Source: Methanoregulaceae archaeon
GTDB lineage: Bacteria; Armatimonadota; Fimbriimonadia; Fimbriimonadales; Fimbriimonadaceae
Reading direction: 5' to 3'
Assembly (NCBI GenBank): GCA_020850325.1
Contig: JADZEW010000005.1
Location: 1-57,855, forward strand
DNA: 57,855 bases
Part shown: positions 22,920 to 46,302 of the stretch, one piece after another
Numbering within the stretch: the first letter of the stretch is position 1
How the letters are laid out: each line of letters begins with the position of its first letter
Program-made: the position numbers and the translations under genes
Notes under the pieces: model-generated
The model's input: the letters and a program-made list of their open reading frames with translations, nothing else
What the model was told of the DNA's origin: nothing
Databases searched by the model: none

Positions 22920-25610
22920 CTACTTCTTCTTCCAGTTGACTTTGACGGTGCCGGTGGCAGTACGCCCAGCATCGTCGATGATGATGTACGTGTGGTGCAT
23001 CATGCCGGGCGCGGGCGGCGATGACAGCGAGATGCGACCGTCGGGGAGAATCTGGGCGTTTGACGGACCGAAGAACCTGTAGAGCCTGATCGACAGATTC
23101 TGGGTGTGCCAGTCGTTTTCGAGCGGGTTGATCGTAACGGACTCCCCCACGATGCCCTGGTACCCGTCTTGCCGCGCGCGAGGGCCATCCGCATTGGGTG
23201 GCAGGGGAGGGCGCACCTCTAGCACCATTGAGTCCGTTGAAGTGACGCCGTACGAATCCGTAACTCGGAACACCACGGTGTAAGGTGAGAAGTAGTATGA
23301 CAAGCTGTAGGAGAGTGATGCTTCATTGCTGATGACCGAGCCATTCAGGAGCCATTGGAAGGTTAGCGGGTCACCATCGGCATCGGTCCCAACACCCGTT
23401 ACCTGAATTGGGAAGGCGGTTCCGCCGACTTCACGCGGTACGTAAATGACCACGTCGGGTCCGGCGTCGGCAACGGGCGGCTGGTTGGGTTCGGGGAGCA
23501 CCGTGACCACCACCTGATCCTCTGACCAAAGGCCTGAAGGGTCGGTGACTCGCAACAAGAACGTGTGAGTTCCTACCGGAAGCGTAGTTTGGAATGTGCT
23601 CGTTGGCCACGTGGCTGCGCCAAGACTCCACAAGTAGGTGAGAGAGTCACCATCTGGATCTGACGACGCAACTCCACTAAGTGTTATCACGGGGCTGATG
23701 TTCGTCCAAGGACTGCCGTCGTGCGGCACTGTGACCGTCTGGTCGGGGCCGGCGTCGGCCACTGGCGCCTGGTTCGGCGCTTCGGTGACCCAGATCACGG
23801 CTTCGGTTTGTCCGGTCACCGTGTTGAACGCCTCGCCGACCACGACCAACATGCCATCTCGCTTATCGAGGTCCCAGGCGTATGAGCCGCCTGCGGCGTA
23901 CTCGATGGGCAGGTAGTCGTGCAGGTCTTCGTAAAGGCCAGCCGATCCGCTCCAGATCATGGCTCTCGGGTTGCCGTTGTACATGGCGTGACCCACCTGG
24001 TGTCCGAAGCCGATGTTGTACGCCGAGGCTGCGTCGTAGCCGAGCGGGGTGAGATCAGTCCATTGCGAGTTGCTCGTCCACAGGGCCGCCCGCATTCCCA
24101 AGAAGTTCCACACGTGGCCCACATGTTGCGTTCCGTCGGTCCGAAAGGCCTCGGACGCCGTCGCGCCCGCCGGATGGATGTCCACCCACGACGCTTCGTT
24201 GCCGTACCAGACCGAGGCGTGCGGTTGGTTCGCGAAGGTGGCCGAGCCAACCTGGACTCCGTTGGCCACGCCATAGGCATGAGACCAATCTGCAGTCTGC
24301 GGATGCAAGACGGTCAAGGTCATGGTTGACGCTGTTGTGCCCGACCATAGGACCGCAACAGAGTAGTTGTTCGCCCCTGGGAATCCCCCCACGTGGAAGT
24401 AACCGTCGGTGCCGGCGGCAACGCCGTACCGATAATCATGCTGGGGAAGGGAGAAGAACGAAGTCGGCGAGCCTTGCCAAAGATTCGCGGCGTTCGTCCC
24501 GGCGGAAATGTTCGAAAACGACCCGACCTGAACACCGCCGGCAACGTCCCACAGATCGCTCCCGTCAAGGTCGCCTGAAAGGTCGACATAGGACCCGACG
24601 GTCAGGTCCGTCCAAAGCGCGGCGTTGCCGTAGCTGCCGTGGGCGGCAACGCCGCCGATTTGACCGTCGCCCGCAGCCCAGGCCGCTGAGTACCAGGCCC
24701 CAGCGGGATGAAGACTTGCGAACGTCCACTTCGGCGCCTCCAGCGCAAGACAATGGTATGTCCCCGAAGCAATGGCCTGAAATCTCCCGCTGGGCAGCGA
24801 ACCGAGCCCTCCCCCAAGATTGCCCCAAGCGTGGAGCGTGCCGTCGCTGCGGATCGCAAGACTATGCTCGGCACCGGCGGAAACTGCCACGAAGGTCCCC
24901 GCTGGCGAAGGCGTCTGACCGCTCCCGCTCGACCCGAACCCGACGACGGTTCCATCGGTGCGGATCGCAAGACTGTGGAAGTTCCCCGTCGAGACGGCCT
25001 TGTAGGTTCCCGGGGGAATCGTCCGCTGGCCGTACTCGTTCGTTCCCCATCCAACCAGCACGCCGTCGCTTCGTAGAGCGAGGCAGTGAGCTTGTCGGGC
25101 CGCGATGGCTGTGTACGTGCCTGACGGAACGTTGGTCTGACCGTAAGCGTTGTTTCCCCAGCCGACAAGCGTCCCGTCGGTGCGGATTGCCAAGCTGTTG
25201 AACGCGCCTGCCGCCACGGCCTTGAAGGTGCCAGCCGGGACGCTGCACTGCCCCCAACCGTTGTCGCCCCAGGCCGCAAGTGTGCCGTCAACACGGATCG
25301 CGAGGCTGTGGTAGCTGCCGCCCGCGACCGCCTTGTACGTGCCCGTCGGTACGTTGGTCTGGCCGTTGGAGTTGTTGCCCCAGGCGGCAAGCGTGCCATC
25401 CTTGCGGACGGCGAGGCTGTGGCCGGGTCCAGCGGCGATGGCGACGAAGTCTCCAGCTGGTGCAATGGCCTGGCCGGAGTTGTTGGAGCCCCATGCGTGA
25501 ACGGCCTGAGCGCTCGCTTGAGAAGCGCCGAGCAGGATCGGGAGCGCGAGCAGCGCGCGAACGCCCGAAGCGAATGACTTGTATGAAAGAAGTATCGGTA
25601 CCGTTTTCAT
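22920..25610 (-). CDS. Secreted RCC1-repeat and PKD-type protein
   Basis: 896 residues. A signal peptide (VRALLALPILLGASQASAQ) is followed by about seven RCC1-like repeats (roughly 35-290). Their pattern is LAAWGNNSNGQTNVPTGTYKAVAGGSYHSLAI, and they form a beta propeller. Residues about 295-600 are a second repeat series of HAF type (LHPAGAWYSAAWAAGDGQIGG, VLHPQTADWSHAYGVANGVQVGSA). Two Ig-like PKD/cadherin-type domains follow (APVADAGPDQTV, PPVADAGPDVVI) and the protein ends with VKVNWKKK. It is probably an extracellular or cell-surface structural protein. There is no PEP-CTERM tail. It is transcribed in the same direction as the subtilisin gene. Confidence 0.75.
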   Translation of the reverse strand: MKTVPILLSYKSFASGVRALLALPILLGASQASAQAVHAWGSNNSGQAIAPAGDFVAIAAGPGHSLAVRKDGTLAAWGNNSNGQTNVPTGTYKAVAGGSYHSLAIRVDGTLAAWGDNGWGQCSVPAGTFKAVAAGAFNSLAIRTDGTLVGWGNNAYGQTNVPSGTYTAIAARQAHCLALRSDGVLVGWGTNEYGQRTIPPGTYKAVSTGNFHSLAIRTDGTVVGFGSSGSGQTPSPAGTFVAVSAGAEHSLAIRSDGTLHAWGNLGGGLGSLPSGRFQAIASGTYHCLALEAPKWTFASLHPAGAWYSAAWAAGDGQIGGVAAHGSYGNAALWTDLTVGSYVDLSGDLDGSDLWDVAGGVQVGSFSNISAGTNAANLWQGSPTSFFSLPQHDYRYGVAAGTDGYFHVGGFPGANNYSVAVLWSGTTASTMTLTVLHPQTADWSHAYGVANGVQVGSATFANQPHASVWYGNEASWVDIHPAGATASEAFRTDGTQHVGHVWNFLGMRAALWTSNSQWTDLTPLGYDAASAYNIGFGHQVGHAMYNGNPRAMIWSGSAGLYEDLHDYLPIEYAAGGSYAWDLDKRDGMLVVVGEAFNTVTGQTEAVIWVTEAPNQAPVADAGPDQTVTVPHDGSPWTNISPVITLSGVASSDPDGDSLTYLWSLGAATWPTSTFQTTLPVGTHTFLLRVTDPSGLWSEDQVVVTVLPEPNQPPVADAGPDVVIYVPREVGGTAFPIQVTGVGTDADGDPLTFQWLLNGSVISNEASLSYSLSYYFSPYTVVFRVTDSYGVTSTDSMVLEVRPPLPPNADGPRARQDGYQGIVGESVTINPLENDWHTQNLSIRLYRFFGPSNAQILPDGRISLSSPPAPGMMHHTYIIIDDAGRTATGTVKVNWKKK

Positions 25611-25727: not shown

Positions 25728-27428
25728 TCAGAGGCTGATCTGCACCCACGAGGTCCAGGCCGACGATCCTGCCGCATTTCGAGCTTGCACTCGATACCGG
25801 TAGGTGCCGGTCGATGTGAGCGTATCGATGGTGGACGTAGTATTGGCCCCCACCGGTGGAAGGGTCGTTGCGTTGGTCCACTTGTTTCCGCTCCCCTTCT
25901 TTTCTCGAGCCACGACGAAGTCGACCTCGTTGTTCGAGTTGTCCGCCCAAGCGATGTTCACCTGAAGCGCGCTTAGCTTGGTCAGCGTCGGCGTTCCCGG
26001 AGCGGCCGGCGGGGCCGGAGGAGGCGGAGCGCCATTACCGAGCGCCGCGCCGGCATCGACAACACCACCCGTCACGGTCTTCCCAGCGAGGGCGGCGATC
26101 GGGCGAGCCGTGCTCATGATCCGATCTTTCACCTGCTGATAGGTCCAGGTCGGATTCTGAACAAGGAGCAACCCAACGGTTCCGGTTACGTGGGGCGCCG
26201 CCATTGAAGTGCCGCTCAGCCATGCCTGGGTATATCCGGGGCCACCCCAATCAAGCAGGTACGTGCTGAGAATGTAGTCGCCCGGCGCGCCAACGTCTAC
26301 CGTCGTGCTGCCATAGTTGGAGAAAGAAGCGAGCCCGTCGTTCATCGTCGTCGCGGCGACGGTGATGATGTTCGGCAGGTTGAATGCAGCCGGATAGTAC
26401 TTCTTGTTTCCGTCGAGATTGCGGGTGAGATTGCCCGCGGCGGCGACGAAGATGTGCCCCGAATTGCCAGCCGACTGGATCGCGTCATAGAGCGACTGGA
26501 TGATCGTGTTGGTCCCGTAACCGTAGCTGTTGTTCGAGACTCTAGCGCCATTCTGAACGGCATACTGCACGGCAAGTGCCGCGTTGCTCATGTAGCCGCT
26601 TCCATTCGCGTCCATGAACCGCAGCGGCATGATCTTGCATAGCCACATCATGCCTGTGACGCCACCGCTACCCGTAAAGCTGTAGTCCTCCGCACCGATC
26701 GTGCCCGCGACGTGCGTCCCGTGGCCGTTGAGGTCCATCGGGTCGTTATCTCCCTCGGAGAAGTCCCAGCCGCGAATGTCGTCGACATAGCCGTTACCGT
26801 CATCGTCGATCCCGTTACCGGCAATCTCATCGGTGTTGGCCCAGATGTTGTCGTCCAAGTTGAAGTGCGTGTACTGAACACCGGTGTCGATCACGGCAAC
26901 CGTGAAGTTCGGGTCACCGATCGTGACGTACCAGGCTTCAGGAGCATTGATGTCCGCACCAGCTGTCGGTTGGCGGCCGTTGAAAGCCATTCCCGTGTTG
27001 TGCATGCCCCACTGGTACGGGTGGAAGAATTGGTCCGTTGGGAATCGCTGGTTCGCCGTCGTCCGCATGACCACATCCGGTTCCGCGTACAGCACGCCCG
27101 GCATCGAGCGAAGTGCCGAGACCATCGCCTCGGGGCTGCGGTTGCCGGTGCTGACCAGTTCGAGGCCGGGCACGAGGTTGTAGCCCCGCAGCTTGACGGC
27201 TCCCGTGAAGCTCCGAGCGAGGCTCCGAACTTCGTCCGATGCGCGCGAATCGAACCGTACGAGCACTGCGTAGGGATTACGATCGAGAAGCGGATTGGCC
27301 CGCAGGGCCGCCGCCGATCGAGCGTGGACGGCGGCGGTAACCGCTGGGTTCGCCATGTCGGATTGAGCTCCGGCGGTTGCCGCGATAGCGAGAAGGGCAA
27401 GCCCTCCATACCTAAGACTGAGTTTCAT
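25728..27428 (-). CDS. Secreted subtilisin-like serine protease (S8) with Fn3 domain
   Basis: 566 residues. The signal peptide MKLSLRYGGLALLAIAATAGAQ is followed by an inhibitor-type propeptide (about 50-122, ending LYAEPDVVMRT) and the catalytic domain (about 140-455). The triad is visible: Asp181 in VIDTGVQ, His236 in NGHGTHVAG, Ser408 in SGTSMAAPHV, with oxyanion Asn333 in AAGN. A Pro-rich linker (GAPPPPAPPAAPG) leads to a fibronectin type III domain ending SSAWTSWVQISL. A GGAGGGAGAT Shine-Dalgarno site fixes the start. It is likely an exported degradative protease; the RCC1-like gene downstream may share its transcript. Confidence 0.93.
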   Translation of the reverse strand: MKLSLRYGGLALLAIAATAGAQSDMANPAVTAAVHARSAAALRANPLLDRNPYAVLVRFDSRASDEVRSLARSFTGAVKLRGYNLVPGLELVSTGNRSPEAMVSALRSMPGVLYAEPDVVMRTTANQRFPTDQFFHPYQWGMHNTGMAFNGRQPTAGADINAPEAWYVTIGDPNFTVAVIDTGVQYTHFNLDDNIWANTDEIAGNGIDDDGNGYVDDIRGWDFSEGDNDPMDLNGHGTHVAGTIGAEDYSFTGSGGVTGMMWLCKIMPLRFMDANGSGYMSNAALAVQYAVQNGARVSNNSYGYGTNTIIQSLYDAIQSAGNSGHIFVAAAGNLTRNLDGNKKYYPAAFNLPNIITVAATTMNDGLASFSNYGSTTVDVGAPGDYILSTYLLDWGGPGYTQAWLSGTSMAAPHVTGTVGLLLVQNPTWTYQQVKDRIMSTARPIAALAGKTVTGGVVDAGAALGNGAPPPPAPPAAPGTPTLTKLSALQVNIAWADNSNNEVDFVVAREKKGSGNKWTNATTLPPVGANTTSTIDTLTSTGTYRYRVQARNAAGSSAWTSWVQISL

Positions 27429-27505
27429 TCGAGATCTCCCTCCGTAGGTCCGGACCTTCGTGACCCGTGCCTATGGCTCATTGTAAGGCGAAAGTGTGAA
27501 GAATG

Positions 27506-27539
27506 TGTGACGGATTTCGTCACAAACGACTTGTATCAT
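27506..27539 (+). promoter_or_regulatory. Operator-like palindrome and -10 box before the ATPase-WD40 gene
   Basis: TGTGACG-GATTT-CGTCACA (27506-27524) is a perfect 7-base inverted repeat and covers the -35 position. TATCAT (27534-27539) lies 7 bases before the ATG, a leaderless-type arrangement. A dimeric regulator bound here would block or replace -35 recognition. Confidence 0.6.
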
Positions 27540-27546
27540 TGAGGTC

Positions 27547-30500
27547 ATGGAAGTCTCGAAGACGTTCTTTCGCCCGGGAGGGACGATGGACCCCAGCGCG
27601 CCGAGCTATATCGAGCGTCAAGCCGATGCCGACTTGCTTGCCGCGCTGTCGGCCGGTGAATATGTTTTCGTCCTCGATTCGCGCCAGAAAGGGAAGTCTT
27701 CGCTCGTGGCCCGCGCGATGGTGAAGTTGCGTGATCGCGGCATCCGGTCGATAAAGGTGGACCTCCAGCGCATCGGGGCCAACTTGACGCCCGAGCAATG
27801 GTACGCCGGACTCCTTGGAGAAATCGGTCAGGAGCTGGGACTTTCCGACGAGGTGTTTGGCTACTGGAAAACCCACCAGGCGGTCGGGCCGCTCGCGCGC
27901 TGGATCGGAGCGCTGCGCGATGTGGTCTTGAAGGATTCCGCCACGCACATCGTGATCTTCATCGACGAAGTTGATTTCGTCCGTGCCCTGCCTTTCGCGA
28001 CCGACGAGTTCTTTGCCGCAATCCGGGACTGCTTCAATCGAAGGTCGGAGTCCAAGGGTTTCGAGCGGTTGACATTCTGCCTGGTTGGAGTTGCCACTCC
28101 CGGCCAACTCATTCGTAACCCCGAGATCACCCCGTTCAACATCGGCCGCCAGATCGAGCTTGCGGACTTCGATCTCGGCGAGACCGGTTGCTTCGGCAAG
28201 ATGCTCGACGGGCCGAACCGCGACGGGGTCAAGCTGATGGCGCGAGTCCACTACTGGCTGAACGGCCACCCCTATCTCACTCAGTTGCTGTGCCGCCACA
28301 TCGAGGCGAACGACTGGGTGCGGACCAAACGCGATGTCGACACCCTGGTGCGGCGTGTCTTCTTGACGCCTGAGGGTCGACAACGCGAACCCAACTTCGC
28401 CGATGTCGAACGGCGGTTGCTCGATCCCGATGTCCCTGGCCTCTCGCCCGAAGAGCGGCGCATTCAGGTTCTCGAGCTCTATGGGAAGTTGTTGAAGGGT
28501 CAGCGAGTCGAGACCCGCGAAGAGAACCCGATCGTTGCTACCCTTCGCTTGGCTGGAGTCGGCCTCGAGGATCGACGCGCGCTCGCGCTTCGTAACCGAC
28601 TCTATCGCATGGTGTTTGACGAACGGTGGCGGCGAAGCAGTCTTCCCGACGCGGAGTTGCGTCGCCAGCGGGGTGCCGCCCGGCTGGCCGTCCTGCGGAC
28701 GGCGTCTGTCGCGGGCATCGTCGTCTTGGGAGTAACGTCGCTGGCAGTCAACCGCAACTGGCTCGCGCACGACCGTGAGCGAGCCTTTCGGGAACTAGAG
28801 AAGCAGTCAGGTGAGCTCATGCGAGTCTCAGGCGAGCGCGAGCAGACGCTCGTTGATCTTCAGCATCGCGCCAAAGAAGTCTCAGCCCTTTCCGAAGAGC
28901 GTGCGAAGTCACTGACAGAGCTCGACCGCCGGAATCAGGAACTGCGACGACTCTCCAGCCTTCGCCAGGCCTCATTGCGCGAGCTAGAGGCCAACAACCG
29001 GGAGTTGATCCGGGTCTCCGCAGGACGAAAGGAGGCGCTAACGAGCCTGGAAAGGACGACAGGAGCCTTGGTGGAGTCCAACTACAGCAGAACGATGAAC
29101 GCACTCGGGCTAGCCCTGTCCGAGAACCACCTCATGCGGGCCGCCACCTTCCTCGATCTCTCGCGGGACTATCCGAACAAGGGCTGGGAGTGGGGTCATG
29201 CCGCTCTCAGGTTAGGGGAATATGTCTACGAACAGCCACTGGAGCCGGATTCGACCTTGGCTATCGATGCGAAGGGCCAGCTTACGACTTACTCGCCCAC
29301 ATGCGCCCGGTTGGTCACGACAACATCGGCAATCGTCACGAAGGCCCCGCCGATCAAAGACCATCTTCTCGACTTCCAGGTGGGACGCTATCAAGTGCTG
29401 AGACCGCAGGCTCAATATACAAGCGTGGTCTTGGACCAGGCATCGGGCAAGGTCGTTTCAGGGCCGAAGCCACTGCCGCGGGTTTACGACGTGTTGCCCG
29501 AAAGAAAGGAAGTCCTTTGGGCTGATGTTGGTCCGAAAGGGCCTATTCTCATCTCAAGAAACCTCGAAACGGCGGCAGACACGACGCTTACTTCCGGTGA
29601 GGGCTACTCAATCCATGCCCAGTTCTTGCCAGATGGCTCAGTGATCAGCCATCATCCGAGCCGAAAGCTCATCCGGTGGGACGCCCGCGGTGCTCAACTG
29701 CACGCTCTAGAGCTCCGGGACTACGTCCAGGCAAGTCAGGCTAATGGTATGACCCTCAGCCCCGACCGCACGAAGATGGTCATTTGGAACTGGGATCCAC
29801 GGGTCCTCCAACTGCGGTCGACGAGTGACCTGAGCGTGGTCCGCACGTTTGAAGGGCCCGAGATTCGACCGCATTCCGCGGCCTTCTCGGCGGATGGAGA
29901 GCGTTTTGTCGTCGGTTCGCTGGACGGGGTCGTGAGGATCTATGATGTCTCCTCGGGAAATCTGATCGTGGCCCTAGCGGGACACCGAGCGTCGGTCATC
30001 TCCGTTCAGTTCTTGCCCGACTCGAATCACGTTGCTTCGATCGACGATCGATGGGTGCTGAGGGTGTGGAAAGTCGATACGCGAACAGCGGTCCGGAGCT
30101 ATGCCACCGGAGAGCATGGACTCCGAGGTACCGCGCTCATGGAGGATGAATCGGCATTGACCGGCGTCACCGTGGATGGCAAGCTTGTTGGCCGGGACAA
30201 TACGACCGGGAAGATGTACCGCCGGAATCTAGGCGTGAATCCGTTCTCGAAGACGCGACCTGCGGGAGCCTACGTGTATTTGGGTTTGAACGATGGGACG
30301 ATCGAGAAGTTGTCATCTCCAGCGCTCGAGGCCGTTGAGAAAAGGCGTATTTCATCAAAGAAGATCGATAGGCTAGTTGACTTCCCGTTAAGCAACAGGT
30401 TGGTCGTCGCTTGTTCCGACGAGAACGAGGTCGAGATTCACCTCCTCGACTACACCAGTTTGCGAGTGATTACCAAGCTGAGCCTGCCGACAGGATTTGA

Positions 30501-31197
30501 AAGCGTGAATCCCTTGAAGATAATGGGCTCCACCACGCAGGGTTGGATACTTCTTGGTTATTGGTCAGGCGACCTGCTGTTCTACTCAGTTGCGGACGGG
30601 AAGCTAATTCGTCGACTTGGTCTCGGCCGATCTCTTCATGAGCTGGTCATTGCCGACAAAGGTAAGACCCTGATTGCCGCCTTTGGTCGAGCGGACCGGC
30701 CGGAGTACAGCGACATTGTCAAGATTGACCCGGTTACGGGACAATTCCGGCAGAAGTTGCCGTACCCGCCGATGCCGCTTGGCTACCTCATTGTGAGTGC
30801 TGAGAGTCGATATCTTGCTGCGGTGACGGGCGTTGGATCGGCCTACTTCTGGGATCTCAAGTCAGGCCAGACGATGTACGAGATTTACCCTGGTGCGCGA
30901 ACCTTTATGGTCAGTTTCTCTCCTGATCTTAAGCGATTCACCCTAAGCAATCTTGGAGCTTCCGCAACCCTTCACGACATTCAGAACGGCGAACAGCTCT
31001 TCACCTTTGAGTACGATCGCGTACCCACCGGGCAGCCGCCGTCTCCTAACTACGGAGACCGGGCTACTTTCATGGATGGAGGAAAGATGGTCAAGGTCGA
31101 CTGTTTGGATGGCGTGGTTCGCGTGTTTGATAGCCGACCCTGGCACGCGCCTAGCCCAAAACCCGCTGCAGGTACGCCTCGTAAACCGGCACCCTAA
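27547..31197 (+). CDS. P-loop ATPase (AAA_35-like), membrane segment, coiled coil and WD40 propeller
   Basis: 1216 residues. An AAA_35-like domain fills 1 to about 330: Walker A-like DSRQKGKSSL (44-53), Walker B IFIDEVD (137-143), ITPFNIGRQIELADF, and an HPYLTQLLCRHI helix. One membrane helix follows (about 381-402), then a heptad-rich coil (about 405-510) with recurring ELxRVSxxRE units. The hinge NYSRTMNALGLALSENHLMRAATFLDL..KGWEWGH is typical of Planctomycetes WD40 proteins, and WD40-like blades run from about 650 to 1190 (SADGERFVVGSLDGVVRIYDVSSG). It is probably a membrane-anchored sensor or signalling ATPase. A palindrome lies in its promoter. Its end overlaps the convergent SARP-ATPase gene by 47 bases, and both carry the same ATPase family, which argues for a joint system. 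Confidence 0.72.
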   Translation: MEVSKTFFRPGGTMDPSAPSYIERQADADLLAALSAGEYVFVLDSRQKGKSSLVARAMVKLRDRGIRSIKVDLQRIGANLTPEQWYAGLLGEIGQELGLSDEVFGYWKTHQAVGPLARWIGALRDVVLKDSATHIVIFIDEVDFVRALPFATDEFFAAIRDCFNRRSESKGFERLTFCLVGVATPGQLIRNPEITPFNIGRQIELADFDLGETGCFGKMLDGPNRDGVKLMARVHYWLNGHPYLTQLLCRHIEANDWVRTKRDVDTLVRRVFLTPEGRQREPNFADVERRLLDPDVPGLSPEERRIQVLELYGKLLKGQRVETREENPIVATLRLAGVGLEDRRALALRNRLYRMVFDERWRRSSLPDAELRRQRGAARLAVLRTASVAGIVVLGVTSLAVNRNWLAHDRERAFRELEKQSGELMRVSGEREQTLVDLQHRAKEVSALSEERAKSLTELDRRNQELRRLSSLRQASLRELEANNRELIRVSAGRKEALTSLERTTGALVESNYSRTMNALGLALSENHLMRAATFLDLSRDYPNKGWEWGHAALRLGEYVYEQPLEPDSTLAIDAKGQLTTYSPTCARLVTTTSAIVTKAPPIKDHLLDFQVGRYQVLRPQAQYTSVVLDQASGKVVSGPKPLPRVYDVLPERKEVLWADVGPKGPILISRNLETAADTTLTSGEGYSIHAQFLPDGSVISHHPSRKLIRWDARGAQLHALELRDYVQASQANGMTLSPDRTKMVIWNWDPRVLQLRSTSDLSVVRTFEGPEIRPHSAAFSADGERFVVGSLDGVVRIYDVSSGNLIVALAGHRASVISVQFLPDSNHVASIDDRWVLRVWKVDTRTAVRSYATGEHGLRGTALMEDESALTGVTVDGKLVGRDNTTGKMYRRNLGVNPFSKTRPAGAYVYLGLNDGTIEKLSSPALEAVEKRRISSKKIDRLVDFPLSNRLVVACSDENEVEIHLLDYTSLRVITKLSLPTGFESVNPLKIMGSTTQGWILLGYWSGDLLFYSVADGKLIRRLGLGRSLHELVIADKGKTLIAAFGRADRPEYSDIVKIDPVTGQFRQKLPYPPMPLGYLIVSAESRYLAAVTGVGSAYFWDLKSGQTMYEIYPGARTFMVSFSPDLKRFTLSNLGASATLHDIQNGEQLFTFEYDRVPTGQPPSPNYGDRATFMDGGKMVKVDCLDGVVRVFDSRPWHAPSPKPAAGTPRKPAP

Positions 31198-32893
31198 ACG
31201 TCCAGCTTCCGGGGCCGGTCTCTAACAGCACCCCGGCGGACACCAGCCGCCTTCGAACGGCGGGGTCGCCCGTGCCCTCGCCACCCAACACACGGCGGAC
31301 CTCGGCCAGGGTCTCCGGATCTCGGTGGACCGCCTCCTTCAGCCTCCGCAGGTGGTCACCGAACGGACCTTCATCGGAGCCGGCAATCTGGACCAGCGAG
31401 TTGATCGCATGCCCTCCGTCGAGGTAGCCGAGCGCCCGACGGGTGAGGAAGGGATGCCCGTGGGTGATCGCGTACACGTCCCCCGCGTGCTTGTGCGTCG
31501 AGTCGCCATAGCGCCGGGCGAGGTCCTCAACTTCGGCCAGCGTAAAGTCTTGCAGGTTCACTCGCACGCCCACATTGAATGGGGACTGGCTCATGTCCTT
31601 GATGAACAGATGGGCTTCAGTCGCGTAGCTGATCGCGATCGTCAGCTTTCGCCAAGGGCCCGCGGGATCCAGAGCTCGGCGGTTGTACCAGCTGCGGATC
31701 AGGCCGAAGAAGTCATCCGAATAGTCGCTCCCAAACAAACGGTCGACCTCGTCCATCGCCCACACCACGCGGTGAGGCGTACGCTTCAACACGTCAGCGA
31801 TCAGGTTGTTCAGGTTCGAGTTCGGACCCACCCATTCGTTCCACGACGGTGGGTAGTCGACGTCCAGCTGGGTCGCTAGGCTATGAAGAAGGCTGTGGTA
31901 GAGAGGCACAACGCGCCCGATTTCGGAGGAGCTGAGGGACTGGAAGTCCGTGACCGCGACTTGCCGGCCTTGCTCCCGGGCATAGTCCGCCACTTGCGCC
32001 AGTAGGGAAGTCTTGCCGACCTGGCGCGGGCCGAACACGATGAGCACGCCCTCGTCGGCATCGAGTGCCGCTTCCATCTGCTCGTCGGCCTCGCGGCGCA
32101 CGTAGAAGCGAGACTCAGCCGGTATCGCCCCACCTGACTCAGGGACCTCGCTTCTCCGTTCAACGATGCCAGACGGTGGCTCGCCGTCAAGGGCCGCGAA
32201 AGCGCGCTCGGAAGGGGTTTGGCCGAAGTTGTCGTCGAGCATCTGCTCGAGAGTTTCAAACTGGCGGAGCGCCATGCTCGCGTTGCCTGATGCAGCGTAC
32301 GCTCGGATCGAAGCGATGAACGGTTCCTCGCGCAGGGGAGCCACATGCAACGCGGTGTTCGCGATGCGCACCGCCTGCGCGGCTTGGCCGTGCGCGATGA
32401 GCGCCGAACAGAACTGCTCGACCGCCGCGCAGTACTCCTCTTCATATTGCCTTCGATACGGATACACCCAGTCATCCTCGAGGGGAGCAGTGATGGGTCC
32501 GGCGTACAACGCAAGGGCCTCGGCGGCTCGAACCAGATAATCCTCAGAATCGACGGCGCACTTGAGTAGCGACTCGAACTGACGGACATCAAAGTCGATC
32601 GCGTCCTCGTCGAGCGCGACCGATCCTGACTCGGTGTGGACCAATCGTCCACGGCTTGTGTTCGTCTCCAGGGCGTCGCGCAGGTCGGTGATCGCGCGGC
32701 GTAGGCTCTGGGATTGCCGGTCACCGTCCGAGTCTGGCCACAGCAGTTCTTTGAGCGTGTGGTTCGAGATTGGCCGCCCGAGGTTCAGGCAGAGAAACGC
32801 ATGCAAACAGCCGACCTTGCGCGATCGAAACACCGCGGGCTGGCCATCTACGCCGACGACCTCGAATCTGCCCAGCATGCGTACTCGCCACAC
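31151..32893 (-). CDS. SARP-type regulator fused to an AAA_35-like ATPase
   Basis: 580 residues. Residues 1-100 are an OmpR-like winged helix (MLGRFEVVG..VFRSRKVGCLHAFLCLNLGRPISNHTLKELLWPDSDGDRQSQSLRRAITDLR). Residues about 105-240 are a bacterial transcriptional activation (BTAD) helical domain (FDVRQFESLL, ALHVAPLREEPFIASIRAYAASGNASMALRQFETLEQML). From 262 on is the ATPase: Walker A GPRQVGKTS (288-296), Walker B WAMDEVD (378-384), SPFNVGVRVNLQDFT, HPFLTRRAL. The C-terminus ends in a small winged-helix-like segment. It is likely a DNA-binding switch controlled by nucleotide state. It is convergent with the WD40 ATPase. The start is GTG, or the ATG five codons later. Confidence 0.78.
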   Translation of the reverse strand: MWRVRMLGRFEVVGVDGQPAVFRSRKVGCLHAFLCLNLGRPISNHTLKELLWPDSDGDRQSQSLRRAITDLRDALETNTSRGRLVHTESGSVALDEDAIDFDVRQFESLLKCAVDSEDYLVRAAEALALYAGPITAPLEDDWVYPYRRQYEEEYCAAVEQFCSALIAHGQAAQAVRIANTALHVAPLREEPFIASIRAYAASGNASMALRQFETLEQMLDDNFGQTPSERAFAALDGEPPSGIVERRSEVPESGGAIPAESRFYVRREADEQMEAALDADEGVLIVFGPRQVGKTSLLAQVADYAREQGRQVAVTDFQSLSSSEIGRVVPLYHSLLHSLATQLDVDYPPSWNEWVGPNSNLNNLIADVLKRTPHRVVWAMDEVDRLFGSDYSDDFFGLIRSWYNRRALDPAGPWRKLTIAISYATEAHLFIKDMSQSPFNVGVRVNLQDFTLAEVEDLARRYGDSTHKHAGDVYAITHGHPFLTRRALGYLDGGHAINSLVQIAGSDEGPFGDHLRRLKEAVHRDPETLAEVRRVLGGEGTGDPAVRRRLVSAGVLLETGPGSWTFRVPVYEAYLQRVLG

Positions 32894-41568: not shown

Positions 41569-44500
41569 ATGCACTCTTCGAACGAGGAGTACGTTCGCAT
41601 CCAGATCGAGGCCCTTCGCGAGAAGCTCCTCGATCTTACGTTGCGCAACCGGATGCTCAACTACAAGCCGTCAAAGCGGTTGAGCGTTGTAATCGAGGGC
41701 GAAGACTCCCAGACGCTCTACAGCCTTCTTGTCGATGAGGGCAAGCGCTTTTCCTTCATTGGCAAGCCGGATCCCGTTCGCTCGGATCCTGGGGACTCGA
41801 CCAGCGAACCTAAGGACTACTCAGATGACGTCTCCATGTCTCGCTTTCGGGAAGAGGCGATCGCCGAACTTGACGGATATCTCGGCCATGCTGCCGTTCC
41901 CGTCGACAAAGCAGATACAAAGCTGTCGACGACCGAATACGAGTCCGTGCTTCAGGCCAAGCTGAGGACGATTCGGCGAGAGGCCAACCTCGTCAATGAA
42001 GAGCTCGGCGTCAACACGCTCTTCTTGACACTGGGAGTACTGGAGTGGCAAGAATCTGAAGCCAAGGTGTGCAAAGCTCCGTTGGTGTTCGTGCCAGTTC
42101 GGCTCGATCAGCTGGCCAATGGTCAAGTTCGGCTCGTTCATGAGGGCGGCGACGCAGGCGTGAACCTGCCGCTTGCGGCCAAGCTCGGTGAGTTCAATCT
42201 TCGCATGCCCGAGTGGACAGACGACAAGCCGCTCATCACCTATGTGAACGAAGTTGCAGGCACGATTCGCGAGCGAATGGGTTGGCGCGTCCTCCCAGAT
42301 GAGGTGCACCTAGGCTTCTTCAGCTATGAGAAGTATTCGATGTACGTCGACTTGGGTGGAGAAGCGTGGCCCGAGGGCAAGAAGCCTTGGCAGAACGCTG
42401 ACCTTGCGGCGATGCTCGGAGGCCAGGGTTACCCGCGCTCCGAATCACGGGTTACGGAGTCCAGCCAGCTCGACAGCGTTCGCCCAGTGACTGAATGCCA
42501 TGAGGTCTACGACGCTGACAGCTCTCAGACCATTGCGATGGTACGCGCCGCCGAGGGCATCTCGATGGTCGTGGAGGGCCCTCCAGGGACGGGCAAGTCT
42601 CAGACCATCACCAACATCATCGCCGAAGCGGTTGCTGCTGGTCGGACGGTCCTGTTTGTATCGGCCAAGCGAGCTGCTCTCGAAGTTGTGACGCGCCGCC
42701 TCGACGAGGCTGGACTCCATGATGTCTTTCTCGATCTGCACGATAAAGGTGCGAACCGGAAGGAGTTCTACGACGAACTCAACCGCACGGTCAAGCGGAA
42801 CCTGAAGCTAGCCGAAGAGCAGTTGAAGGTGCAGCGGTTGGCGGAGTTGCGCGAGCTTCTCAACGCCTACAGCGAAGCGGTCAACACGCCGATCGGCCGC
42901 TACGGCGTCCCCCCGTTCATCGCCATGGCACGGCTCGCCCGATTGCCCAAGGAGGATGCCGACGACCGCGCGGGTCGCATTACCTTTGAGGTTCTGAGTG
43001 GCAATTCCGTCGAGGAGATCGACCTGGCGCTCCCGAGGGTTGCCGCTCTCCAAGAGCGCATCGCTAAGATCGGTATACCGATCGAGCACCCTTTCTGGGG
43101 AGCGGAGATCGACTATCTGGACCCGTCGCTGAAGCTGGACCTCGAGACTGATCTGGCCGCGTGCCTCTCGAAGCTTGAAACCGCCCTTGCTGACTGGAGC
43201 GAGGCGGCGCGTCGACTCCGGGTCGAAGTCGAACCTACGAGTGACCATGTTCGCGTCTTGCAGGCCTGTGTTGCGCGGGCCGAAACGGCGCCGGAACTCG
43301 ACGGAGTCGCCGTGAAGGCCTCGACGTGGCGTGCCGACCAAGCCAAGGTTGAGTCGACCATTGAGGCGCTCCGATCGAGAGCTGCGGCCCGAGCCAGGCA
43401 AGCGAACACGGTTCGACCCGATGCGTGGGGTACCGACGTGGGAGGACTGCTCGTGACCTATCAGGATTGGGGTCACCGCTGGTATCGATTCCTGTCCGGC
43501 GCATTCCGCAGTGCACGCCGGCATACGCGGGCGCTCCTCGTGGAGACCGCTCCTGCGGATCCGGCAAGTCAACAGTCCGCGCTCGAGGATATCCGCACCT
43601 CCCGAGCTTCCGAAGCGTCGATTCAAGACGCCAACGGATTGATGCAACGCCTCTTTGGGGCGCAGTGGCAGGGAACGGACTCCGACGCCGAGGTCCTGAC
43701 GAAGCTCCTCGAGTGGGTGCTCTCCTTGAGAGACGAGGTCGAGCAGGGCAACATTCCCGACGGCTTGCTCGACTTCTTCGCCGGGCGCACTCCGTTGCCC
43801 GAGGCCTCGACGGCAGTCAGCCGGGCGATTGAGTCAGCGCAGGGAGCCCTCGCTGCTTATCGCGAGGTCGCTGCGATCCTCGCCTGCCCGACCAATGGAG
43901 CTGAATCGACCCCGTTCACCTTGCTGCTCGATCGCGTGCGGACCTGGCAAAGCGAACTTCCCATTCTCTCTGAGTACATCGCGTTCCGAGAAGCTCGGCG
44001 TCAAGCCCAAGCCGTCGTTCCCGCCGAAGTCATCGACGTTGCCGATTCATGGCCGGGTTCAGCCACGCGGCTGCGCGACACGTTTTTGCGCAGCTATTTT
44101 TCGGGTGTTGTCCGCCAAGCGATGCTAGAAAGGCCCGAGCTCAGGTCGTTCGAACGGCTCGGACACGAGCGGGCGATCGCCGAGTTCAAGAGCCTGGACG
44201 ACTTCAATCTTCGCTACAATCGTGCGCGAGTACGTCTCGAACATCACCGCAGGCTTCCCTCATTCGAGTCAGCAGCCGGTAACCTGCAACTTCTCAAAGT
44301 CCAGTGTGAGCTGAAGCGGAAGCACAAAGCGATTCGCTGGGCGATGGCGAAGGCTGGAGAGGCTGTGATGAGGATCAAGCCAGTCTTCATGATGAGCCCC
44401 CTCTCGGTGGCCATCCACCTGCCGCCCGAACTCCCGGCCTTCGACCTTGTGATCTTCGACGAAGCCTCTCAGATTAGACCGGAAGACGCACTCTGCGCGA

Positions 44501-46302
44501 TTGCCCGTGCCAAGCAGTGCATCGTGGTGGGCGACACCCGCCAGATGCCACCCACCTCGTTCTTTGACCGAGTATTGGTTGACGACGCTGACGAGGATGT
44601 CGACGAGATCCGCGAGTTTGGAGCCGAGGCGCGCAAGCTCGAGAGTGTTCTGTCGCTTCTGAGCGCCGTCGTGGGTGATTCGAATCGGCGCCCGATGCTT
44701 AGGTGGCACTATCGTAGCATCCACCCGTCACTTATCCAACCGTCGAACGAACTGTTCTACGACAACCGATTGGTGATCTTTCCGAGCCCATCGGTCGATG
44801 TTGCGGGGCGCCGAATCGGTGTCGTGTTCCACCACGACCCCACGACCGTGTACGAGGCAGGCTCAGGAAGGCGCTGGAACCCGAAGGAGGCCGGCGCGGT
44901 CGCCCAAGCGGTGCTTAAGCACGTGACGAATCACCCGGAAGAGAGCCTGCTGGTCGCCGCGATGAACAAGCAGCAAGCCGACCTGATCTACGACGAAGTC
45001 TCCAAGATCGAGCGAATCCATCCGTCCGTGTTTGCTACCTTTCGCTCCCAGCATCCGCACGAGCCACTGGACGTGAAGAACCTAGAAACCGTCCAAGGCG
45101 ATGAGCGAGACGTTGTTATGGTCAGCATCACCTACGGTCGCGATGCGTCAGGGATGATCCGACAGAACTTCGGCCCGATCCTGCAAGAAGGAGGCGAGCG
45201 TCGGCTGAACGTTCTGTTCACGCGGGCGAGACGTCGTTGCGAGATCTTCTCTAACATGGTGGGGGATGACCTGCGAAACGAGGGTGGACGTGTCGGGGTA
45301 ACAACGCTCAAGGCGTTCCTGAACTTCGCCGAACGAGGAATCCTGTATGTTCCCGAGTCCTCGGGCGAAGGACCTGAGTCGCCGTTCGAGGAAGAAGTTG
45401 CCGCGGCTCTGCGAGCGGCCGGCTACCAGGTCGATTCGCAAGTCGGTTGCGAGGGGTACCGAATTGACCTATGCGTGGTCGACCCTCAGCAGCCGGGGCG
45501 CTACATTTTGGGCATCGAGTGCGACGGAGCGACCTATCACTCCGCCCGGAGCGCGAGGGATCGGGACAAACTCCGGCAGCGAATACTGGAGCACCGGGGT
45601 TGGATTCTGCACCGCATCTGGTCCCCCGATTGGTGGCAGGACCGAGATGCCGAAGTTGATCGGCTCTTGCACGCGATTGACGCCGCGCGCACAGCAAACC
45701 GCGAGTTCTTTCTAGAGGCAGACCTGCGCGAAGAGGGCTCCTACGTCTTGGATGCACCCGAGAGAGAAGTGAAGTCGACGCTCACACGACCTTACGTTGT
45801 TTCGACAGGGAAGTTGCGCGAGCCCAACGAACTGGACTTCATTCAGTTTGTCGGGGACACCATTCGAGTCGAGGGCCCCATCCATCATGAGTTGCTTTTG
45901 GCTCGGATGAGAACCGCGCTGGGAGTCGGACGCGTCGGCTCGAATATCCGGGTCTGGTTTGAATCGATGCTGGCGAAGGTGCCAAACGTTCAGCGAATAG
46001 AGGACGCGTGGTACGTCGAGGCTGCCCAACTCAAGTTGCCTAGAGATTGGTCTGAACGTCCAGGGGACGAGAAGAAGACCACCTATGTCACGGAGGCTGA
46101 AATCGCAGCCGCGATCAAGTCTGTCGTCCGGCGATCGTTTGGAATCCCCTGGCGCGAGGCGGCGCGCGAGGCGTGGACCTTGCTGGGTTTTCGCCGCGTA
46201 ACCGACACCGCGATTGACCGCGCAGACGAAGTGCTCTCTAAACTCATCGCCAGCGGCGGAGTCGTCCGCCGCGATGACTTACTTCACCCGCCGACATCGT
46301 AG
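41569..46302 (+). CDS. DUF4011-type SF1 helicase with Vsr/MTES_1575-like nuclease
   Basis: 1577 residues. The N-terminus EALREKLLDLTLRNRMLNYKPSKR is the DUF4011 signature. The split SF1 helicase core has Walker A GPPGTGKSQT (337-346), motif II VIFDEAS (961-967), GDTRQMPPTSFF (motif III), RWHYRS (motif IV), VQGDERDVVMVSITYGRD (motif V) and LFTRARRR (motif VI). A nuclease of the Vsr/PD-(D/E)XK type follows (about 1275-1370): YRIDLCVVD with Asp1300, and GIECDGATYHS with Glu1317 and His1324. The C-terminus (about 1410-1577) has a DUF3320-like helical part. Such fused proteins are common in bacterial defence islands and probably cut invading DNA. Here it stands alone behind the ribosomal operon. 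Confidence 0.88.
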   Translation: MHSSNEEYVRIQIEALREKLLDLTLRNRMLNYKPSKRLSVVIEGEDSQTLYSLLVDEGKRFSFIGKPDPVRSDPGDSTSEPKDYSDDVSMSRFREEAIAELDGYLGHAAVPVDKADTKLSTTEYESVLQAKLRTIRREANLVNEELGVNTLFLTLGVLEWQESEAKVCKAPLVFVPVRLDQLANGQVRLVHEGGDAGVNLPLAAKLGEFNLRMPEWTDDKPLITYVNEVAGTIRERMGWRVLPDEVHLGFFSYEKYSMYVDLGGEAWPEGKKPWQNADLAAMLGGQGYPRSESRVTESSQLDSVRPVTECHEVYDADSSQTIAMVRAAEGISMVVEGPPGTGKSQTITNIIAEAVAAGRTVLFVSAKRAALEVVTRRLDEAGLHDVFLDLHDKGANRKEFYDELNRTVKRNLKLAEEQLKVQRLAELRELLNAYSEAVNTPIGRYGVPPFIAMARLARLPKEDADDRAGRITFEVLSGNSVEEIDLALPRVAALQERIAKIGIPIEHPFWGAEIDYLDPSLKLDLETDLAACLSKLETALADWSEAARRLRVEVEPTSDHVRVLQACVARAETAPELDGVAVKASTWRADQAKVESTIEALRSRAAARARQANTVRPDAWGTDVGGLLVTYQDWGHRWYRFLSGAFRSARRHTRALLVETAPADPASQQSALEDIRTSRASEASIQDANGLMQRLFGAQWQGTDSDAEVLTKLLEWVLSLRDEVEQGNIPDGLLDFFAGRTPLPEASTAVSRAIESAQGALAAYREVAAILACPTNGAESTPFTLLLDRVRTWQSELPILSEYIAFREARRQAQAVVPAEVIDVADSWPGSATRLRDTFLRSYFSGVVRQAMLERPELRSFERLGHERAIAEFKSLDDFNLRYNRARVRLEHHRRLPSFESAAGNLQLLKVQCELKRKHKAIRWAMAKAGEAVMRIKPVFMMSPLSVAIHLPPELPAFDLVIFDEASQIRPEDALCAIARAKQCIVVGDTRQMPPTSFFDRVLVDDADEDVDEIREFGAEARKLESVLSLLSAVVGDSNRRPMLRWHYRSIHPSLIQPSNELFYDNRLVIFPSPSVDVAGRRIGVVFHHDPTTVYEAGSGRRWNPKEAGAVAQAVLKHVTNHPEESLLVAAMNKQQADLIYDEVSKIERIHPSVFATFRSQHPHEPLDVKNLETVQGDERDVVMVSITYGRDASGMIRQNFGPILQEGGERRLNVLFTRARRRCEIFSNMVGDDLRNEGGRVGVTTLKAFLNFAERGILYVPESSGEGPESPFEEEVAAALRAAGYQVDSQVGCEGYRIDLCVVDPQQPGRYILGIECDGATYHSARSARDRDKLRQRILEHRGWILHRIWSPDWWQDRDAEVDRLLHAIDAARTANREFFLEADLREEGSYVLDAPEREVKSTLTRPYVVSTGKLREPNELDFIQFVGDTIRVEGPIHHELLLARMRTALGVGRVGSNIRVWFESMLAKVPNVQRIEDAWYVEAAQLKLPRDWSERPGDEKKTTYVTEAEIAAAIKSVVRRSFGIPWREAAREAWTLLGFRRVTDTAIDRADEVLSKLIASGGVVRRDDLLHPPTS

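Follow-up and report, generated by a model that had tools for sequence, protein, structure and literature searches.

What is done by two convergent genes whose 3′ ends overlap and whose products carry the same type of ATPase? The question is raised by a 57,855-nucleotide (nt) stretch of DNA, hereafter the window, from an assembly labelled Methanoregulaceae archaeon (GTDB lineage Bacteria; Armatimonadota; Fimbriimonadia; Fimbriimonadales; Fimbriimonadaceae; GCA_020850325.1, contig JADZEW010000005.1, positions 1 to 57,855), in which genes A and B lie tail to tail. The first-pass annotation, made from the letters alone, had proposed that A encodes a membrane WD40 sensor that hands a signal to a SARP regulator encoded by B through contact between their ATPases. 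We consider that A and B each supply half of a STAND (NOD-type) signalling switch that is split over two proteins, with a probability of roughly 0.7. Pairing, paralogy, exchange of modules and a conserved operator come out of sequence comparison, as described below. The open reading frames (ORFs), their strands, the convergent arrangement and the 47-base 3′ overlap were verified on the window sequence and are as the annotation had given them:

27547 to 31197, plus strand: gene A, 1216 amino acids (aa); AAA_35 (a STAND-type nucleoside triphosphatase, NTPase), membrane helix, coil and WD40 propellers; proposed membrane sensor
31151 to 32893, minus strand: gene B, 580 aa; OmpR-type winged helix-turn-helix (wHTH), BTAD (SARP) and AAA_35; proposed output partner
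31151 to 31197: 3′ tail-to-tail overlap of A and B, 47 nt, a length that is not kept in relatives

The two NTPases are of one type, as had been claimed from their motifs. Both proteins match PF14516 (AAA_35) far above the curated cut-off (27 bits), A at residues 10–256 (E 4.3e-24, 85.4 bits) and B at residues 255–576 (E 4.5e-54, 183.9 bits). A BLASTP comparison of the NTPases gives 29% identity across 244 aa (E 7e-19). The STAND motifs RQxGK[ST]S, DEVD and GHP[YF]L are common to A and B and are conserved across the alignments of relatives, and both NTPases have the STAND/NOD fold, judging from their structure models. No convincing solved relative of AAA_35 was found by sequence search. In a tree of 53 pairs, the A-type and B-type NTPases form the two sides of one branch (Shimodaira–Hasegawa-like approximate likelihood ratio test, 100), and the A/B labels require 1 change, compared with about 36 when the labels are shuffled. 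The annotation would have been undone by the lack of a shared ATPase family; what is found is one family that splits into two sister clades.

The two architectures also occur together. Among 61 genomes (the own genome and 60 relatives), AAA_35 is present in 14, each time with both gene types, A and B, while 47 have neither; in G013, one of the 14, the A gene is broken up, its pieces lying where contigs end. Four AAA_35 genes are present in the own genome: besides the pair in the window, another contig carries a further convergent pair. When the genomes of 84,980 species were scanned with the B NTPase, at least 571 relatives emerged; the 80 that were kept are chiefly from Armatimonadota, Verrucomicrobiota and Acidobacteriota. 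Of 81 distinct B genes whose flanks could be used, 59 have an A gene at most 2.5 kb away, as found with A and B profile hidden Markov models. These adjacent pairs are arranged as tandem B-A (33), tandem A-B (13) or convergent (13). The adjacent arrangement is also seen in many AAA_35-bearing members of a sample of 29 cyanobacterial genomes, and one genome bin, G064, has 16 AAA_35 genes. At least four bacterial phyla have the A-B pair.

Distances between A proteins follow those between B proteins with a Mantel r of 0.883, the maximum in 2000 permutations being 0.328, though this congruence includes shared species history and is supporting, not decisive. Two cyanobacterial ORFs, L145:3846-6062 (minus strand) and L149:1718-4432 (plus strand), fuse an A-type NTPase to a following B-type NTPase, the latter ORF with a class III cyclase-like domain between the two. 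Such natural fusions are good evidence that A and B types work together. Adjacency in the genome survey, congruent distances and fusions support the idea of a two-gene unit. The further suggestion that antisense overlap ties the levels of A and B did not hold. Among convergent relatives, the 3′ ends overlap by up to 65 nt in some cases and lie 161 and 1046 nt apart in others, and pairs in other phyla are mostly tandem; antisense coupling was rejected as part of the system. A mobile or viral origin was likewise rejected, since one match was found in 2.9 million viral contigs and plasmid AAA-like proteins are distant, none covering 80% of B.

Protein A is composed of the parts named in the first-pass annotation (ATPase, membrane helix, coil and WD40), all of which were found by profile search, helix prediction and structure modelling:

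27574 to 28314, plus strand: AAA_35 NTPase core of A, residues 10–256; Walker A RQKGKSS, Walker B IDEVD, TPFNIG, GHPYLTQ
28315 to 28662, plus strand: C-terminal winged-helix-like part of the A NTPase, residues 257–372
28693 to 28749, plus strand: predicted single membrane helix of A, residues 383–401, positive side towards the NTPase
28762 to 29106, plus strand: coiled-coil linker of A, about residues 406–520, from sequence and model (long helices, low confidence)
29221 to 31131, plus strand: beta-propeller sensor region of A, about residues 559–1195, probably two propellers; fast-evolving

In almost every A protein, a hydrophobic helix lies about 330 residues past Walker A, and its NTPase-facing flank is positively charged. 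By the positive-inside rule, the NTPase is predicted to be cytoplasmic and the WD40 propellers extracytoplasmic. The alternative A sensors with PEGA/CarboxypepD_reg domains and a DUF2092-like domain (predicted to be periplasmic) fit the extracytoplasmic side. The structure model of A, from which the first 16 residues were omitted owing to a length limit, has a predicted local distance difference test (pLDDT) score of 77. Its top Foldseek match is full-length Apaf-1, a NOD followed by propellers, and local propeller matches reach Z 24–29. Both genes are under purifying selection in comparison with the sister species, with ratios of nonsynonymous to synonymous divergence (dN/dS) of 0.14 for A and 0.09 for B. 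The sensor part of A is 63% identical to that of the sister species, compared with 90% for B, so that the sensor diverges faster. Within A, residues 257–372 (window positions 28318–28665) show a dS of 0.37 against L033, compared with 1.36 for the preceding NTPase core; recombination between lineages is possible in this winged-helix stretch.

The winged helix, BTAD domain and ATPase predicted for B are confirmed by profile matches. The N-terminus matches Trans_reg_C (E 2.7e-6) and BTAD (E 1.9e-18), which is the SARP arrangement:

32609 to 32893, minus strand: predicted wHTH DNA-binding part of B, residues 1–95; recognition helix GDRQSQSLRRAITDLRDAL
32204 to 32590, minus strand: BTAD part of B, residues 102–230
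31166 to 32131, minus strand: AAA_35 NTPase of B, residues 255–576; Walker A RQVGKTS, MDEVD, SPFNVG, GHPFLTR

The model of B (pLDDT 89) divides into two regions. Residues 1–240 match EmbR and AfsR (Z 18–20), and residues 245–580 match STAND NTPases, with the archaeal structures 2qen (Z 22.2) and 2fna (Z 21.3) ahead of CED-4 (17.7), plant NLR resistosomes (about 17), Apaf-1 (15.1; also Dark) and MalT (14.6). The chain ends with the NOD (residue 576 of 580) and does not have the layout of AfsR-type large SARPs, in which NOD and TPR lie in one chain. Profile search found no histidine kinase or receiver domain in A or B.

Both ends of the pair are exchangeable. The N-termini of B proteins are wHTH-BTAD, wHTH, TIR, TIR-TIR, cyclase, cyclase-TIR, SARP-TIR, Ser/Thr kinase or kinase-TIR, and cyanobacterial B proteins have short HTH-like regions, TIR or CHAT-TIR. 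The B tree requires at least 19 changes of output module, compared with one for the convergent orientation. On the other side, the A sensor is WD40 in 17/19 and 29/43 proteins of two sets, and otherwise TPR, PEGA plus CarboxypepD_reg, DUF2092-like or unrecognised. The presumed catalytic Glu is kept in 50 of 59 TIR forms; all three cyclase motifs are found in 11 of 24 cyclase forms by a regular-expression check that is too strict for a firm count. In the B proteins L037:5755-8082 and L055:746-3007, which consist of SARP, TIR and AAA_35, the TIR may serve as an adaptor, because it sits between the DNA-binding module and the NTPase. TIR-AAA_35 B-type genes of Verrucomicrobiota (L060, L069, L071, L076, L090 and L127) have no A gene in the flanks fetched, and these solitary genes may use distant or different partners.

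On which DNA would B act? A palindrome at position 27506 had been put forward as a target of the SARP protein. The inverted repeat is real (27506–27524) and conserved, and it lies within a larger element upstream of A:

27496 to 27523, plus strand: proposed B operator GTGA-N7-GTGACG-N6-GTCAC, an 11-bp direct repeat plus an inverted half-site
27534 to 27539, plus strand: −10-like hexamer TATCAT, from sequence and alignment, ending 7 nt before the ATG of A

SARP regulators bind direct repeats with an 11- or 22-bp period near −35, and a NOD-controlled SARP with an 11-bp-repeat box is established for AfsR (PMC10936776, PMC5930380). In the 140 nt upstream of A, and with at most one mismatch, GTGAC-N6-GTGAC is found in 10 of the 12 convergent SARP pairs, which thereby have a putative SARP-type site of 11-bp direct repeats, as well as in 1/9 tandem SARP pairs and 0/34 non-SARP pairs. 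The difference between convergent SARP and non-SARP pairs gives a Fisher value of 1.6e-8, which is somewhat overstated, the pattern being partly derived from the same sequences. Exact-match genome counts of the composite operator are a cleaner test. Without mismatch, it occurs exactly five times in four genomes, always 23–24 nt before the start of A: at both pairs of the own genome, in the sister species, in G012 and in G040. A recognition-helix pattern, RQxQxLRxA, is common to the convergent SARP B proteins and is not found in the tandem ones. The box distribution and the composite-site counts support, by comparison, the suggested connection of the SARP protein with the 27506 element, and the A promoter itself would be the best-supported target of B.

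The surroundings of the box vary in some loci. It stands before the first of two A genes in L039, and an exact box precedes B in the tandem SARP pairs L126 and L124. Two exact GTGAC-N6-GTGAC boxes at L048:7335-7394 and three at L055:6202-6398 are clustered upstream of A, hinting at cooperative operators. A wider operator regulon was rejected, since the perfect composite site is found only at A promoters and the inspected near-matches lie in coding DNA. A generic consensus scan found no canonical promoter before A. Because TATCAT ends 7 nt before the ATG, its position suggests that the A mRNA may be leaderless or nearly so; the inverted half-site, about 10 bp from TATCAT, is the half-site nearest to it.

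Taken as a split switch, the pair would work as follows. Binding of an outside ligand, or a change in the envelope, would alter the nucleotide state of A, whose NTPase would then contact that of B (NOD to NOD) and turn B on. The contact, the ligand binding and the direction of control, that is, activation and not release from inhibition, are what we infer. The SARP domains of activated B would bind next to each other at the 11-bp direct repeat of the A promoter and recruit RNA polymerase, raising the level of the sensor A in a positive feedback. B might also drive transcription of a divergent exported protease, described below. In other genomes, the same switch would drive a kinase, a nucleotidyl cyclase, a TIR or another DNA-binding domain.

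Several points weigh against this reading, in addition to the share of species history in the Mantel congruence. No A gene lies inside 2.5 kb of 22 of the 81 B genes (some at contig edges), which are mostly TIR forms, and some B proteins may function on their own or with partners encoded far away. All four genomes that carry the composite operator belong to one order, L037 has no SARP box, and the exact box of L047 stands before a PD40 gene that precedes A. About 20 bp separate the 3′ direct repeat from TATCAT, where 8 bp is usual for a SARP, and the −10 element is itself a guess. An inverted repeat in the operator is unusual for a SARP, and another regulator could use the site. The placement of WD40 outside depends on the positive-inside rule plus one helix, and bacterial WD40 domains are often cytoplasmic.

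If another regulator does use the operator before A, the targets of B would lie elsewhere. The site is indeed also a palindrome of the type bound by symmetric dimers; however, the box tracks SARP-type B proteins, appearing in the convergent SARP pairs and in none of the non-SARP ones (10/12 and 0/34), the shared recognition-helix pattern is confined to convergent SARP proteins, and the other inspected near-matches are in coding DNA, so that we regard this explanation as improbable. Still less probable is that adjacency is a leftover of tandem duplication, with A and B independent and B an AfsR-like one-component regulator. The NTPases are paralogues and 22 B genes stand alone, as this would have it, but adjacency survives orientation changes, module swaps and four phyla, the distances are congruent, A-B fusions exist, and B has no counterpart of the TPR sensor half of AfsR.

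The sign of control is less sharply constrained. A may hold B inactive at the membrane until a signal frees it, as in RGA5/RGA4 or RRS1/RPS4, and negative regulation is known in plant NLR pairs (PMC10561179). The co-conservation and the feedback on the A promoter would fit a negative loop equally well, B then switching on its own inhibitor. Under such control, however, solitary B genes would be permanently on, which fits poorly with TIR outputs, and we consider inhibition by A unlikely, if still a serious candidate. A role in defence was also suggested by the first-pass annotation. In an abortive-infection scheme, the WD40 region would sense phage at the envelope and the output would kill or arrest the cell, the SARP form inducing a defence gene. 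The STAND fold common to Avs and plant NLRs, the presumed catalytic Glu of most TIR forms (50/59), the fast divergence of the sensor and the patchy presence (14/61 genomes) would agree with such a role, which is possible especially for the TIR forms. Against it, PADLOC gives nothing for A and only weak ATPase-core matches for B (the best with E 1.3e-5 over 42 residues), ribosomal-protein genes are found close to the window pair, which is in synteny with the sister species, the viral contigs contain a single match, and the outputs include transcription factors, kinases and cyclases and are not mainly toxins. Nothing specific to defence was found in PADLOC, NCBIfam, the viral contigs or the locus context; a defence annotation of the window pair was rejected, and defence as the explanation is doubtful. 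Activation of B by A through the split switch is the reading that we retain.

The gene divergent from A shares its operator region:

25728 to 27428, minus strand: divergent subtilase (S8) gene, with a signal-peptide-like N-terminus; operator region common with A

This exported subtilase, which is kept as a neighbour in the sister species, is a possible second target of the operator and not a conserved part of the A-B unit. A conserved third gene was rejected, as the neighbours vary (S8 subtilase, PD40 propeller, ProRS, transketolase and cytochrome b). Adjoining the subtilase, window positions 22920–25610 (minus strand) encode an 896-aa protein in which RCC1-type repeats precede PKD/bacterial Ig domains. 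A 1577-aa protein with DUF4011, a superfamily 1 helicase, an MTES_1575 nuclease and DUF3320 is encoded at 41569–46302 (plus strand), an architecture that we take to be that of candidate defence helicase-nucleases.

As for previous descriptions, a single paper in the open-access literature searched, on cyanobacterial sigma factors, mentions AAA_35 as a protein domain. We came across no account of AAA_35 pairs in this literature, preprints and most subscription papers being outside, and an earlier description is possible. Known inward signalling in bacteria runs mainly through phosphorelays, membrane-bound transcription factors and sigma/anti-sigma pairs. If the split-switch reading is true, a NOD pair with swappable ends would be another general route for outside signals and a bacterial model of communication between paired NOD proteins. 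With the A promoter, the SARP form would offer a simple read-out at the level of transcription, so that STAND sensor-to-executor signalling could be measured directly in a bacterial reporter. We lean, by a narrow preference, towards regarding AAA_35 pairs as a general class of bacterial transmembrane signalling not described before, in which a sensor NOD would act on an output NOD by like-with-like NTPase contact with exchangeable ends. Such pairs would be the prokaryotic equivalent of paired NLRs and a means of signalling other than the phosphorelay of two-component systems.

Compared with known systems, the pair resembles two-component systems and CadC/ToxR-type membrane activators in tying membrane sensing to an OmpR-type wHTH, but it has no kinase/receiver phosphorelay, and NTPase-to-NTPase coupling is proposed instead. 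AfsR, a large SARP of Streptomyces (SARP-NOD-arm-TPR), likewise carries wHTH and BTAD on a STAND NTPase and uses two 11-bp direct repeats near −35 (PMC10936776), and the SARP part of B matches AfsR structures with Z 18–19. However, AfsR has its own sensor in one chain, whereas the sensor here is a second, membrane-bound NTPase from the neighbouring gene, and the NTPase family here is AAA_35. Among the apoptosome NODs (Apaf-1, Dark and CED-4), Apaf-1, the top full-length match of A, is also a NOD followed by two WD40 propellers; A differs in that it lacks a CARD and has a membrane helix separating its NOD from WD40, with the output on a separate protein. Bacterial STAND conflict systems (Avs, bNACHT and those of Kaur et al. 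coupled by effector-associated domains, EADs) use similar TIR, cyclase, kinase and repeat modules (PMC7159879, PMC8195603), but their sensor and effector are in one chain or joined via EAD/death-like adaptors, and neither AAA_35 nor the A-B pair is mentioned in the passages of these two papers that were searched. The coupling element of the A-B pair, unlike theirs, appears to be a second paralogous NTPase. In organisation, the pair also resembles the plant paired NLRs (RRS1/RPS4, Pik-1/Pik-2 and RGA5/RGA4), linked paralogous NODs split into sensor and executor, in which the sensor evolves faster and TIR or DNA-binding modules occur in the pair (PMC10561179). A and B are likewise linked paralogous NODs, and dependence of the executor on the sensor may be supposed by analogy. 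The likeness in pairing may be one of analogy; the system here is bacterial, built on AAA_35, and has a membrane sensor and exchangeable outputs. The parts are of known kinds (STAND, SARP, WD40 and TIR); what appears to be new is their arrangement, with a transmembrane NOD sensor on one protein and its paralogous NOD output on another.

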